Below, in pieces: positions 6,949 to 25,829 of a DNA stretch of 64,000 nucleotides (position 1 is its first letter; each line of letters starts with the position of its first letter). Made by a program: the position numbers and the translations under genes. This stretch comes from Chloroflexota bacterium (GTDB lineage: Bacteria > Chloroflexota > Dehalococcoidia > Lucifugimonadales > Australimonadaceae), in NCBI GenBank assembly GCA_009838965.1, contig VXQP01000104.1, forward strand, positions 1 through 64,000, written 5' to 3'. The notes beneath the pieces were generated by a model, which saw nothing but the letters and a program-made list of their open reading frames with translations, was not told the DNA's origin and made no database searches.

Positions 6949-7770
6949 CTACGATATGTGTACGCCGCCGTTCACTTCGAGCAGCGCTCCTGTAACGTAG
7001 GTCGAGAGGTCGGAGCAGAGGAAGATGATCGGCCCGACGGCTTCCTCGACGGCCGCGGCGCGCTTCAGCGGTATCACTTCAAGCGCCCTGTTACGTGCGG
7101 CCTCCGGTATGCCTTGCGGCGCTCCGCGCACGAACTCGCTCTGCGACTCCATCGCGCGCGTCATCCGCGTGTCGATGAACCCGAACGCCATCGAGTTCGC
7201 CAGCACGTTGAACATCGCGCCTTCTATAGCGACCGTCCGCGTGAGCCCCGCGATCCCGGCCTTTGCCGCGGAGTAGTTCGCCTGGCCGAGGTTCCCGAAC
7301 CCGGAGAGCGACGAGATGGTCACGATGTGCCGAGCGGGCACGGCCTCGCCGCGCTCTTTCTCCCCTCGTGCGTGTTCCCGCATCACCTTGAACGAGTCGC
7401 GCACGACGCGGAACGTTCCGCCGAGGTGCACGTCGACGATGGCATTGAACTGTTCGTCCGTCATCCGGTGGATCATCCCGTCCCAGAGGAAGCCGGCCGC
7501 CGTTACGACGATGTGCAGCCCGCCGAACCGCTCCACCGCCAGCGACGCCAGCCGCTCGCCGATGTCCGCATCCGTGACGGATGCGGCGAGCCCGACAGCG
7601 GTGCCTCCCGCCTCTCCTATCTGCCGGAGGGTATCGTCCAGTGGGCCTTGATCGAGGTCGTTCGCCACGACGCTTGCGCCCTCTTTCGCCAGCCGCAGGG
7701 CGACGCCCTGCCCGATGCCGCGTCCCGCGCCGGTAACGATCGCCACGCGGCCTGCTATGCCTTCCACCAT
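6949..7770 (-). CDS. SDR family NAD(P)-dependent oxidoreductase
   Basis: GRVAIVTGAGRGIGQGVALRLAKEGA; YSAAKAGIAGLTRTVAIE. Confidence 0.92.
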   Translation of the reverse strand: MVEGIAGRVAIVTGAGRGIGQGVALRLAKEGASVVANDLDQGPLDDTLRQIGEAGGTAVGLAASVTDADIGERLASLAVERFGGLHIVVTAAGFLWDGMIHRMTDEQFNAIVDVHLGGTFRVVRDSFKVMREHARGEKERGEAVPARHIVTISSLSGFGNLGQANYSAAKAGIAGLTRTVAIEGAMFNVLANSMAFGFIDTRMTRAMESQSEFVRGAPQGIPEAARNRALEVIPLKRAAAVEEAVGPIIFLCSDLSTYVTGALLEVNGGVHIS

Positions 7771-18991: not shown

Positions 18992-19645
18992 ATGGACGAC
19001 GCAGCCGCCAATACGCAGTCCCGCATCGACGAGATAGCCGCCCTCTCACTCGACGAGTTCCGAGCCAAACACGAGCGGCGCGAGCAGGCGATCAAGGTTT
19101 CACGCGAGGTCGTGCGGACCTCCGCGAACGCCATACGCGCCATCCATCGCAACGAGCTTGACGAGGCTCGCGAGCTCATCGGTGCGGCGGGTGCGCTCGT
19201 CCGCGAGACCCAGCAGACCCTCGAGGGCCACCCGGACCTCTATTTCACCGGCTACACCCAGGACGCCCAGAAGGAGTACGCGGAGGCATGCGCCGTGCTC
19301 GCGTTCATCGCCCGCACGGAGCTCCCGCTCCCGGCAGACATCGGCGTCGAGACGCCGTCCTACCTCAACGGGCTTGCCGAGGCCGCGAGCGAACTGCGGC
19401 GCTACATCCTCGACTCCCTCCGCCGCGACGACGACTCCCGTGCCGAGGAGCTGATGCGCTACATGGACGACGTCTACAACATCCTCGTCGTCATGGACTT
19501 CCCGGACGCCCTCACCTCCGGCCTCCGCCGCACCACCGACCAGCTGCGCGGCGTCCTCGAGCGCACCCGCGGTGACCTCACCATGACCATGCGCCAGCGC
19601 CGCCTCGAGCGGCTGCTCAACGACCGCTCTTGGGATTCTCGATAG
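18992..19645 (+). CDS. translin family protein (3' end altered by insertion)
   Basis: REVVRTSANAIRAIHRNELDEARELIGAAG...GHPDLYFTGYTQDAQKEYAEACAVLAF...YLNGLAEAASELRRYILDSLRRDD...MDDVYNILVVMDFPDALTSGLRRTTDQLRGVLERTRGDLTMT; translin-like signature. Terminates ...LLNDRSWDSR*, whereas the repeat copy at 23.57 kb reads ...LLNDRSAT*. Confidence 0.78.
   Translation: MDDAAANTQSRIDEIAALSLDEFRAKHERREQAIKVSREVVRTSANAIRAIHRNELDEARELIGAAGALVRETQQTLEGHPDLYFTGYTQDAQKEYAEACAVLAFIARTELPLPADIGVETPSYLNGLAEAASELRRYILDSLRRDDDSRAEELMRYMDDVYNILVVMDFPDALTSGLRRTTDQLRGVLERTRGDLTMTMRQRRLERLLNDRSWDSR
19587..19629 (+). repeat. left direct repeat (attL-like) of the translin insertion
   Basis: CCATGCGCCAGCGCCGCCTCGAGCGGCTGCTCAACGACCGCTC. 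Confidence 0.85.
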
Positions 19646-20399
19646 CAGACTCCGCGCCTGATGGGGCCAGTTCATCTGCTATGGGGTCGAGTACCTTGCA
19701 GATCTCCGCATATAAGTCCTCGTCGGAGTAGTGCACAGGACGCTTTGCGGAACCTGGGCCACGCCCGGGAAAGCGGGTTGCTAATGCCCTTGCAAGTGGC
19801 AAGAAGTTCCCCGGTTTCGTCAATGTCAAACGTTGCGAGGGCTCCAACTCTTCGAACCAACGTGCAAGCACATCGCGTACGTTCTTGGTTCTGATGGCTC
19901 CTCGTCGATAGATTTCCCTGGCGTTGGTGCGACTGCCTCCGAATGCCATCATAGCTGTGGCAAGCTCCTGCTCCTGTAGCCAAAGCCCGACAGCGAAGAC
20001 ATCGCGCTCCAGCCTAGTGGGGTCAGGTTCTCGATTCGGGGTTAGTTCTTGCCAAGCCTTCTCTGAGCTTCCGTCTGCACGCACACCAAGCCTGCACTTG
20101 CGGGCTATTGCCTGCCAAAGCGACATCTGCTCGCCTGGGTCAAGGTGTTTAGATTGCACAAGCCCCGATTCCATCAACGCCCGGCCGACCGCCCATCGCT
20201 TGACGAAAGCACGTTGCTCGGCCTCGGCTGTCTTTACATCAGCAGCCAATGCCACGGCTCGGTCAAGCATCTCGTCAATCTCACGGTCCAGCGCTTCCGC
20301 TTCGGCTCGGAACAACTCTCCACGTAGGCTCGCCGGACGGACGGTCTCCACCACGCTGCTCAGCGTACTGTCGGCTCGATTCCATATCTTGACCGGCAT
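19617..20399 (-). CDS. unknown protein encoded in the insertion
   Basis: MPVKIWNRADSTLSSVVETVRPASLRGELFRAEAEALDREIDEMLDRAVALAADVKTAEAEQRAFVKRWAVGRAL...; ATG overlaps the stop of the upstream ORF. Confidence 0.7.
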   Translation of the reverse strand: MPVKIWNRADSTLSSVVETVRPASLRGELFRAEAEALDREIDEMLDRAVALAADVKTAEAEQRAFVKRWAVGRALMESGLVQSKHLDPGEQMSLWQAIARKCRLGVRADGSSEKAWQELTPNREPDPTRLERDVFAVGLWLQEQELATAMMAFGGSRTNAREIYRRGAIRTKNVRDVLARWFEELEPSQRLTLTKPGNFLPLARALATRFPGRGPGSAKRPVHYSDEDLYAEICKVLDPIADELAPSGAESAIENPKSGR

Positions 20400-21013
20400 T
20401 AATCGCGCTCCTCGAATAGGCTCAGCGAACGTGAAGCGCAGTCCCTTGCGAGCCTGTTGTACTCGTCCAAGTGTCCAGTGTAACCCCGCAGAGCCGCCAA
20501 CTCGTGCATCTTGTCGCTGTAGTTCTCCCAACGATCGGGGTTGGCACCGGCCGGTGTGCCACTTAACAAGTCGTCCAACCGAGAGAGGTCTCCTTCGTCT
20601 ACGGGGTCCATGACCCACTCAATGATGCCCTCGGCACAGACATCTACGACGAAAGCCGAAACACCAGACAAACGCTGGGTGGTGCGAACCGGGCCCGTAT
20701 CCAACGCCCTATAAAGAGGGTAACCCGAGGGATAGCGCAGTACCCAACTGGTGGGGTCGCTCTTGTCAAACTGCCAGCGGGGGTGGGGGTCATCACTGGA
20801 GATCTGTTCGATTCTGAATGGTGGCCAGTCCTGGGACTGCGCAGGGTCAACCTCTATGTCTAATGTGCGGCTGGCGTGGGCCACCACGTCGCCGCTGAGG
20901 TAGAGGTCTGCGCGCAACGTGTGGCGCCCTGGCGGCAGAGCAACTGACTGCATTGAAGGCTCAGGGGGCACAGTGGGATTAACTGTAATGCGGGCCTTGG
21001 ACACCGGGCACAC
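20399..21013 (-). CDS. Ig/CARDB-like segment plus unknown C-terminus; probably the separated 3' part of the GHKL ATPase gene
   Basis: GTG start; KARITVNPTVPPEPSMQSVALPPGRHTLRADLYLSGDVVAHASRTLDIEVDPA continues the beta-sandwich pattern interrupted at the end of 20979-22946. Confidence 0.55.
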   Translation of the reverse strand: MCPVSKARITVNPTVPPEPSMQSVALPPGRHTLRADLYLSGDVVAHASRTLDIEVDPAQSQDWPPFRIEQISSDDPHPRWQFDKSDPTSWVLRYPSGYPLYRALDTGPVRTTQRLSGVSAFVVDVCAEGIIEWVMDPVDEGDLSRLDDLLSGTPAGANPDRWENYSDKMHELAALRGYTGHLDEYNRLARDCASRSLSLFEERD

Positions 21014-22946
21014 GGGAAGGAGTTGCTCCGGCAGGGATTCCCTGCGTCACAACAGGTGCCATGTCTGCGAGGAGGAGGTCTCCGAGGCTTGCAGTCAACT
21101 GCAGCGTTTGGCTCTCTGCCGTGTGGTTGGTGACACTTATCTGGACTCCGACGGTATCGCCACTGTTGATGCGGCGTTGTCCGGTGGAGTGGTTCTCCAC
21201 GGATATGGATATCGTGTATGGCTTGGAATGGCGCTCAGGCGGGTCCTCGTTCACGAACATACTCCGGGATGCTTGAGCGACCTGCACGCCACTTGCTTCG
21301 ACCCTCGCCACAAGTCTCCATTTCCCATCACGCGCACACTGCAACTTTCCTTGAGTCGGTGTGCCGTTGATGACCTGATAATCCCCGAAACGCGCGATTC
21401 CCTCTCCATTCCGCCACTCCACCTCCCGGCTTGCGACGAGTGTGCGCGACTCTGATTCGTCGGCTTTCATCAATTCCAAGGATACGACGGCGCGCTTGGA
21501 GGCAGGTGGTTCGAGTCTAGTGATGACCTCTAGATTGCGGATGTATTGCCCCCTGTTGACGCGCGTAGACCTAGAATCGGGGTACTCCAGATGTAGTTCG
21601 CATGACCAGCGCTCAGACAACCCGGGAAGCAATTGAGAAGGTGCTGACGCTCTTCCGCGATCGCCTCGTGGTGACCGCGTTCGGGGATTCAGGAATCGTA
21701 GGAACTCCATAGCTGCGTCACGCTCTGCCTCTGGGGCTTGGCGAATGGACTCCTGCGTGCCCCATCCTTGTTCCGTTGCGAACTCTTCCACCTTGCTTAC
21801 GATGACCGAGAGCATGGGTCTGATTCCTGACGAGCGCCGGTCGAACCGTTCGTGCTGTGAACTCTCCGCCCTACGAAGTTCAGGTTCAGAGGCTTGGTCG
21901 AATTCAACGAAGCCCCGAAATCCCGGCCGCTTGTCACGAGGGACGTAGTCTGACAGAGTCTCCGTCCCCAAGGTTTCTATCCATTGCTGACCCCTCAGCA
22001 GTTGGACACCCCAGAATTGCGCACTAGCCCCTTCGATGTCGGGTTCATTTAGCGATTCATCGTAGAGGAGGACGATACGCTTGATCTTCAACCCGGCAAC
22101 ATCCACATTCTCGTAGGTTCGAACTCGGGGCGTTGACCTTCTCCACGGCTCGGACTCCCACCACTCTGGAACCGAAACAGCCTGGCGGATTCCGTCCTCG
22201 TCAACCAAGCTGATGCTCATGCCAACCTGAATGGCCCGCCACCAGCACCGCTGGAGCCACGAATGGAGTTCGCCAGACTGGAAGGCTTCGAGAGCTTCAT
22301 GAGACAAGTGGGGCACTATGACGCGAGTGCCCACTTGAGTGAGTGGTTCCAGCCCTAGCTGAATATCCGTGCCGTCGGCAGATGTGTAATGAGAGGACAC
22401 TATTCGGCGAGCTTCTTCAGCGCTGAAGGGCGGCGTCAGCACGGTATCGAACGGGCTGGCATAACGGACGCCTAGGCGATACGTACCATCTGAGAGAAGC
22501 GTGTCGTAGAGAATCATCATCCGGTCTTGTTGGGAAGAAGCCACCCTCGGTAACGCTGAGTGGTACAAGAAGGCAGCTTTGCCCTGCCCTCGCGAACCCA
22601 AGGCCGCGTCGTCTTCCTTGGTGTACCCCATGCCTTCAAACGCGGCCCAATTCTCGTCTGCGCGAAGCACATTACCCCTCGCTTGAATCTCGTCCAAGGT
22701 GAGGGCGGGACCTCGGAGCCCCGTAGTGTTGGAGTCGGTGACGGTAAGCATGTAGGCACGGGTGCCGTCCAAGAGAGGACGTTGGTACAATCGGTATTCC
22801 ACTTGAGCATGACCTCGGGCAGCATCCTTGGAGTTTTGCACTGGCTCTTGCGCCAGTGCGCGGATAGGGCCCATTCCGTAGCCCTCGATGATGTTGCGCA
22901 CGATGGTGACCATGTTAGTGACGGTCGGTACGAACTGAGATGTCAT
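20979..22946 (-). CDS. GHKL (Hsp90/MORC-like) ATPase-domain protein
   Basis: N-box QEPVQNSKDA (ExxxNxxDA), G1-like VTDSNTTGL, G2-like GSRGQGKAAFLYHS. Confidence 0.72.
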   Translation of the reverse strand: MTSQFVPTVTNMVTIVRNIIEGYGMGPIRALAQEPVQNSKDAARGHAQVEYRLYQRPLLDGTRAYMLTVTDSNTTGLRGPALTLDEIQARGNVLRADENWAAFEGMGYTKEDDAALGSRGQGKAAFLYHSALPRVASSQQDRMMILYDTLLSDGTYRLGVRYASPFDTVLTPPFSAEEARRIVSSHYTSADGTDIQLGLEPLTQVGTRVIVPHLSHEALEAFQSGELHSWLQRCWWRAIQVGMSISLVDEDGIRQAVSVPEWWESEPWRRSTPRVRTYENVDVAGLKIKRIVLLYDESLNEPDIEGASAQFWGVQLLRGQQWIETLGTETLSDYVPRDKRPGFRGFVEFDQASEPELRRAESSQHERFDRRSSGIRPMLSVIVSKVEEFATEQGWGTQESIRQAPEAERDAAMEFLRFLNPRTRSPRGDRGRASAPSQLLPGLSERWSCELHLEYPDSRSTRVNRGQYIRNLEVITRLEPPASKRAVVSLELMKADESESRTLVASREVEWRNGEGIARFGDYQVINGTPTQGKLQCARDGKWRLVARVEASGVQVAQASRSMFVNEDPPERHSKPYTISISVENHSTGQRRINSGDTVGVQISVTNHTAESQTLQLTASLGDLLLADMAPVVTQGIPAGATPSRVPGVQGPHYS

Positions 22947-22987
22947 GGCATCGCTCCCGAAGTACGTGGTCGTCTACTCGTTGAGGG

Positions 22988-23473
22988 TTACCCAGTACGC
23001 CGTCGGCGCTGCCTTCGCGCTCCGACGTTGCGGGCATTGGGGTAATCCCTGCGCAGAGCGTAGAACCCTTTAGCAGTAGGGCGGACAAAGCGGGGGTCCT
23101 GGACCATGCGGGCGGTCAGGTTGGCCCATGGAGTCGCTCCATAGAGGTCTCCTCCACGTCTGATGACCTCCTGTGCCAGCTCCTTGTAGTACATTGGCTC
23201 TCCGTTCCGTTCACTCAGCACTGCCTCGGCGATATCACACACATGGCTGCGGTTGCCAGTATTGTAGTTGTGTTGTGTCTGTGGCATAGCATCTTGGCTT
23301 TCAGATGACTCTTGGTCGTCTAGGAGCGCTCGTACATGCTCTAGGCGTCGCTGCACGAGTGAGAGGCGTTCTTGGGCTTCCCGGACTCTCATCTGAAGAT
23401 CTGCTGCCTCCGCTTCCAGGTGTTGGCGCTCAGTGGCTAGCAGACTGTTTAGGTTACCTTCCATATCGTGCAT
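22988..23473 (-). CDS. coiled-coil plus HARE-HTH-like (winged helix) protein
   Basis: AEAVLSERNGEPMYYKELAQEVIRRGGDLYGATPWANLTARMVQDPRFVRPTAKGFYALRRDYP fits the HARE-HTH pattern; N-terminal heptad-like region. ATG 23473 or 23464. Confidence 0.65.
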   Translation of the reverse strand: MHDMEGNLNSLLATERQHLEAEAADLQMRVREAQERLSLVQRRLEHVRALLDDQESSESQDAMPQTQHNYNTGNRSHVCDIAEAVLSERNGEPMYYKELAQEVIRRGGDLYGATPWANLTARMVQDPRFVRPTAKGFYALRRDYPNARNVGARRQRRRRTG

Positions 23474-23502
23474 CCTTTCACTACCTGGAGGTTTGGCAAA
23501 TG

Positions 23503-23530
23503 ACTATAACAGAATGTAATACGGTGTCAA
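23503..23530 (-). promoter_or_regulatory. sigma70-like promoter of the insertion operon
   Basis: On the minus strand TTGACA-N16-TATAGT, just upstream of the HARE-HTH ORF. Confidence 0.7.
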
Positions 23531-23567
23531 TAGGGAGAATAATGGTGGATGTATTACGGCAGCGGCC

Positions 23568-23610
23568 CCATGCGCCAGCGCCGCCTGGAACGCCTGCTCA
23601 ACGACCGCTC
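23568..23610 (+). repeat. right direct repeat (attR-like), carrying the probable native translin 3' end
   Basis: CCATGCGCCAGCGCCGCCTGGAACGCCTGCTCAACGACCGCTC, then CGCCACGTGA; encodes MRQRRLERLLNDRSAT*. Confidence 0.85.
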
Positions 23611-23753
23611 CGCCACGTGACGGAGCGGGAGTGTCCGGTGTCGCCGGTTTGACCTTGGGGCGCTCTGGCGCAGACAATAGCGCACTGCCGGACTCCGGCG
23701 AGAATCACATGTGCGGGGCAGTGGTGGGCCGTGCCCATGCCCCCGGGAGGTAG

Positions 23754-25829
<2,076 letters not shown>

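Follow-up and report, generated by a model that had tools for sequence, protein, structure and literature searches.

A recombinase-free cargo operon at the 3′ end of a translin-family gene in a Chloroflexota bacterium, flanked by two copies of the gene end

Results

Organisation of the translin-hppA locus

The window analysed here is a stretch of 64,000 nucleotides from the genome of a Chloroflexota bacterium, which we refer to as G000; G001 to G005, G007 and G014 denote the genomes of relatives. The genomes compared are metagenome assemblies, one per species. Within the window a translin-family gene is followed by a block of three genes on the opposite strand and then by hppA, with the following features.

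18992..19645, plus strand: translin-family gene, target of the insertion; the final codons, ...RSWDSR and the stop past the left repeat, are insert-derived
19587..19629, plus strand: left copy of the translin 3′ end, within the intact gene
19617..20399, minus strand: third operon gene, encoding a 260-aa all-helical protein; its final codons lie inside the left repeat
19630..23567, no strand: inserted cassette of about 3.9 kb, GC 0.578, without a recombinase; missing from G003 and G004
20399..22946, minus strand: second operon gene, encoding a GHKL-type ATPase with beta-sandwich domains; split by a frameshift into ORFs 20979-22946 and 20399-21013
22988..23473, minus strand: first operon gene, encoding a 161-aa HARE-HTH protein with an N-terminal coiled-coil-like stretch (Pfam PF05066, E 4.1e-8)
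23474..23567, no strand: AT-rich stretch closing the cassette on the right and lying upstream of the operon, a probable promoter region
23568..23610, plus strand: right copy of the translin 3′ end, now separated from its gene; its frame runs through RSAT and a stop to 23620
23754..25829, plus strand: hppA (membrane pyrophosphatase), the native downstream neighbour

The 3′ end of the translin gene is present twice, in copies that lie 3981 nt apart and are identical at 40 of 43 nt. This duplication, first noted in the original prediction, was re-found by self-comparison (BLAST E 5e-11). Read in frame, the two copies encode the same residue at 14 of 14 codons, with four synonymous differences at third positions. 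The left copy reads on into ...RSWDSR and the right copy into ...RSAT, with its stop at 23618-23620, endings that had been called correctly; hppA begins about 130 bp further on. Pfam supports the translin assignment weakly (E 2.5e-5, 24.8 bits, below the cut-off of 25.9), and homologues of the gene were found in 29 of 39 related genomes.

The block between the copies also differs in composition. Its GC content is 0.578, compared with 0.667 for the remainder of the window, which bears out the earlier impression of a lower value, and in a sample of the genome only about 0.9% of 4-kb stretches were as low in GC and 0.8% deviated as far in tetranucleotide usage. As had also been supposed, a Pfam scan of its ORFs identified no recombinase. 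The window holds no tRNA, and a tRNA attachment site was discarded as an explanation.

The cargo is a conserved three-gene operon

The opposite-strand operon that had been described is present, but it consists of three genes rather than four, since two of the ORFs represent one frame broken by a frameshift. In most relatives the GHKL gene is a single frame of 844-887 aa, and it is the window copy that is shifted near 20980-21013. The break may reflect either a decaying gene or an assembly error; with its frame broken, this copy may be inactive. Of 17 related public Chloroflexota loci, 16 have the HARE-HTH, GHKL and 260-aa genes in the same order, and the contig of the other ends inside the operon.

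The GHKL protein contains conserved EPVQNxxDA and GxRGQGK motifs, corresponding to the N-box and the glycine-rich lid. Its structural model, which is of moderate confidence (pTM 0.46), resembles HSP90 (E 4.5e-11) and topoisomerase VI-B (E 4e-8), and carries beta-sandwich domains in its second half. The 260-aa protein was modelled by AlphaFold2 with a pLDDT of 86, and the model returned no fold match in the PDB at E<=0.001; searched by sequence against the PDB, neither of these two proteins gave a convincing match. Among the families in PADLOC-DB, PDC-M33A weakly matched the N-terminus of the GHKL protein in 11 of 14 relatives (best E 1.7e-5), a match confined to residues 20-56 in the intact protein of G002. 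The likeness to PDC-M33A is limited to this similarity, the HARE-HTH and 260-aa partners having no convincing PADLOC match, and no described defence family in PADLOC matched across the operon. A role of the operon in defence is plausible.

Ten Chloroflexota loci, several of them titled Anaerolineae (L055, L056, L058, L059, L060, L061, L062, L063, L065 and L067), have the same operon in a stable position, next to nuoB and/or ahead of rpoB. The insertion in the window is itself one gene away from nuoB.

The translin-hppA junction is empty or differently filled in relatives

An uninterrupted translin-hppA junction had been proposed as something to look for in relatives, and we found it in two members of the same genus; occupation of the site in all relatives was not seen. 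In G003 and G004 the two genes are directly joined and translin ends in NDRSGA and NDRPDS, respectively, each followed by its stop. A third member of the genus, G002, which is identical to public contig JAPOOH010000348.1, contains a diverged version of the three-gene operon at this position; the right copy there is decayed and carries an in-frame stop. In G005, also of this genus, two translin 3′ ends flank an ImmA/IrrE-HTH gene and a PIN-domain gene. Given the empty junctions, the diverged operon and the different cassette, comparison of these genomes identifies the 4-kb block as an insertion at the translin 3′ end.

Three further genomes of the family carry other DNA between translin and hppA, namely a split DUF4011 helicase with an MTES_1575 nuclease domain in G001, a DNA methylase with an Mrr domain in G007 and an unassigned membrane-like protein in G014. 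A clear second copy of the translin 3′ end was not found in these three genomes. By eye, a possible degenerate 3′ end (about RLKQLLTARD) can be made out upstream of hppA in G014 (L033, around 7580-7620). At least four different cargos thus occupy the junction among the relatives while other junctions are empty, and the combination of empty sites and differing cassettes makes translin a hotspot.

With metagenome assemblies, a repeat of this kind might be thought an assembly error or a chance duplication. We consider this very improbable, as the independent assembly of G002 also shows this operon with the translin gene end on both sides, G005 holds other cargo at the same site, and the self-comparison gave the repeat the low E-value quoted above.

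Similarity to the left copy stops at differing points in G000, G002 and G005, and the left tail of G005 past the stop (GTGACGGAGCGGG) matches the downstream DNA of G000 better than the right copy of G005 itself. At fourfold-degenerate sites G000 and G002 differ by 0.43-0.59 in the cargo, as against 0.34 in translin and 0.26 in hppA. This excess suggests that the cargo of the two genomes arrived separately, with faster evolution of the cargo as the alternative.

Gene-end duplications recur at other genes

We screened about 1.2 Mb of the 3.0-Mb genome (about 40%) for direct repeats and classified the hits by eye. A single opposite-strand HNH nuclease gene lies between 46-nt copies, 93% identical, of the 3′ end of an NMT1-like gene (contig C1), and at a helicase gene (C5) 55-nt copies, 87% identical, flank 3.5 kb containing an ADP-ribosylglycohydrolase gene and an OGG-like gene. 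In G005 the NMT1-like gene is followed by an ArsR-glyoxalase cassette flanked by 117-nt copies. Similar ArsR-glyoxalase genes follow the same NMT1-like gene in G004, in the opposite orientation to those of G005, and there a second copy was not seen (L176, L177).

The situation at alaX (C8) is more complex. Relatives share a methyltransferase gene after alaX, and a copy of the alaX 3′ end followed by a DUF433-PIN pair occurs only in G000. This copy and pair (L127:10365-11712) follow the methyltransferase gene and not alaX directly, possibly through successive insertions. The methyltransferase itself was rejected as a cassette, as four relatives have it after alaX without a second copy. By eye, we assigned the remaining repeats of the screen to paralogous genes or to dispersed repeats between genes.

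Across sites the repeats range from about 30 to 117 nt, and those at four genes share no common motif or inverted-repeat core beyond codon-shuffled controls. The cargo at duplicated or reused sites includes HNH, PIN, ImmA/IrrE and MTase-Mrr genes, and also ArsR-glyoxalase genes. Pfam scans of the ORFs examined detected neither a tyrosine nor a serine recombinase in any of these inserts. A search for gene-end duplications accompanying the cassette operon elsewhere came back empty: around its other loci with usable flanks none were seen, so the duplication goes with the target site and not with the operon. With the same pattern at other genes, varied cargo and no integrase, the short gene-end copies appear to act as handles for the movement of cargo.

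Recombinases in the genus

Integrative and cis-mobilisable elements can target gene 3′ ends, and the original prediction had likened the locus to a site-specific integrative element. Insertion at the translin 3′ end is upheld; site-specific attachment at translin is not, as the targets are unrelated and share no motif. In the broader form of this explanation, circular cassettes enter gene 3′ ends as attachment sites under the action of a site-specific recombinase that is supplied in trans or has since been lost. It would account for the restored gene ends, the direct repeats at both borders, the empty sites and the hotspot with varied cargo, and candidate enzymes exist. Of the three tyrosine recombinase matches in G000, two recur in most or all of the genus and one is extra; G000 also has six serine recombinase matches, G003 10 and G005 13. 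The serine matches of G000 are located elsewhere than the inserts. Among the family genomes inspected, none showed an element with an integrase at the translin 3′ end that might mobilise such a cassette.

Several observations weigh against this explanation. Two defining traits, an own recombinase (in the inserts examined) and one conserved attachment motif (in the repeats at four genes), were both lacking; there are several unrelated targets in one genome, and the repeats are dissimilar and of variable length. In G001, which has an insert at translin, serine recombinases are missing and tyrosine recombinases number only two. The shared core left by large serine integrases is usually very short. 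No viral contig matched the translin 3′ end, and a phage or virus targeting it was set aside. From the unrelated targets, the repeats of variable length without a motif and the lack of a recombinase in the inserts examined, a translin-specific recombinase is unlikely, and an integrative or cis-mobilisable element in general also seems to us a rather unlikely source of the inserts.

The serine recombinases of about 550 aa form a dispersed family that is abundant in the genus and lies in differing surroundings (L103, L104, L106, L107 and L114-L121). Two loci in G005 contain convergent pairs of them with an identical spacing of 3088 nt. We discounted these proteins as the trans-acting enzyme, as they are dispersed, their surroundings differ and none was seen at the duplicated sites.

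Discussion

A possible route of insertion

The extra gene end could derive from an incoming donor gene or from the recipient itself. We favour the former, and propose that a cargo operon free of recombinases was inserted with a long target duplication through a single crossover of an imported gene 3′ end, an account we hold to be evenly poised between right and wrong. The imported DNA would consist of the translin 3′ end of a related strain joined to the operon. One crossover within this short gene end would integrate it, whether the DNA had first been religated into a circle or underwent homology-facilitated illegitimate recombination, presumably with the use of RecA. The resident gene would thereby gain the last codons of the donor, from which the left tail would originate, and the resident 3′ end would be pushed beyond the cargo. 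Once two direct copies are present, recombination between them could delete or re-create the insert. The same route is proposed for the insertions at the NMT1-like and helicase genes. ComEC and Ku were found in six of six genus members and would make uptake and circularisation possible, with Ku perhaps closing the circle.

The alternative is capture of foreign DNA where the gene end undergoes a staggered double break or a template switch; the site would be filled in and joined around the incoming fragment in a Ku-dependent manner, so that both copies stem from the recipient. The variable length of the duplication, the unrelated targets and the occurrence of Ku throughout the genus are all consistent with such an event, as is the right copy in G002, which is decaying neutrally with its in-frame stop. 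In G000, on the other hand, the right copy keeps all its residues despite the four synonymous differences, and the left tail of G005 resembles another strain. The differences between copies are also unevenly placed. Of the 47 differences in seven repeat pairs, third codon positions account for 28, compared with about 46% estimated for the capture model (p about 0.04), whereas such a bias is expected if both copies had been coding alleles. We therefore regard capture as doubtful. The third-position excess and the left tail of G005 would favour a donor gene end carried in with the cargo, neither being decisive.

The single-crossover account has its own difficulties. With a homology of 30-60 nt, RecA would be working close to its lower limit. 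Integrase targets, too, typically lie at gene 3′ ends, although selection keeping the gene intact would lead to the same preference. The third-position excess fits a target duplication only slightly worse. Neither a circular form nor a donor molecule nor an excision product came to light, and a single-step insertion does not account for the alaX case.

Relation to described systems

The pattern fits "insertion with long target duplication", known for restriction-modification genes (Nobusato et al. 2000, Gene 259:99, as described in PMC1643837 and PMC3031569), better than it fits a translin-specific integrative element. As far as those two descriptions go, the likeness lies in accessory, often restriction-related genes and in long direct target duplications of variable length; here these are 43 nt at translin and 46, 55 and 117 nt elsewhere, with uninserted alleles in G003 and G004. 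Measured against the same descriptions, our case differs in that the target is repeatedly a gene 3′ end, the translin copies differ mostly synonymously, sites are reused and the cargo extends beyond restriction-modification.

The minimal mobile elements of Neisseria (Saunders and Snyder 2002; definition in PMC3082526) are varied whole-gene cassettes between two conserved genes, exchanged by homologous recombination without mobility genes. The different cassettes at one conserved gene pair, translin and hppA, and the lack of mobility genes are shared with them. In the definition cited, however, they are not characterised by duplicated gene ends, and a double crossover in the flanks would leave none.

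In E. coli, imported DNA with homology at one end mostly gave rise to partial gene duplications of 109-950 bp through a single crossover of recircularised molecules (PMC3240628), and type VI effector and Rhs loci offer known examples of displaced 3′ ends (PMC5361080). Both resemble the translin locus in one-ended homology and in a partial gene-end copy that is duplicated or displaced. The laboratory duplications are longer than the 30-117 nt found here, and the gene targeted here is of an ordinary kind, not a variable toxin. Integrative and cis-mobilisable elements share the 3′-end target, the restored gene and the direct repeats; they are set apart by the absence of a recombinase, the several unrelated targets per genome and the variable repeats of our inserts.

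Implications

Much defence and accessory cargo occupies hotspots without a visible mobility gene, and its route of arrival is a question for the field. Gene-end duplications at several genes, with varied cargo and empty sister sites, provide a sequence signature open to genome-wide counts and to bench experiments. It would be a rather long step, and one we think unlikely to hold, to a genus-wide cassette system free of recombinases, in which portable 3′-end homology handles move defence and toxin-antitoxin cargo into many conserved genes while leaving the genes unbroken, possibly with a dedicated host factor. The cargo block in the window is possibly an anti-phage system, and the three-gene HARE-HTH/GHKL/260-aa operon, to which no described defence system was matched here, is a conserved candidate system in its own right.
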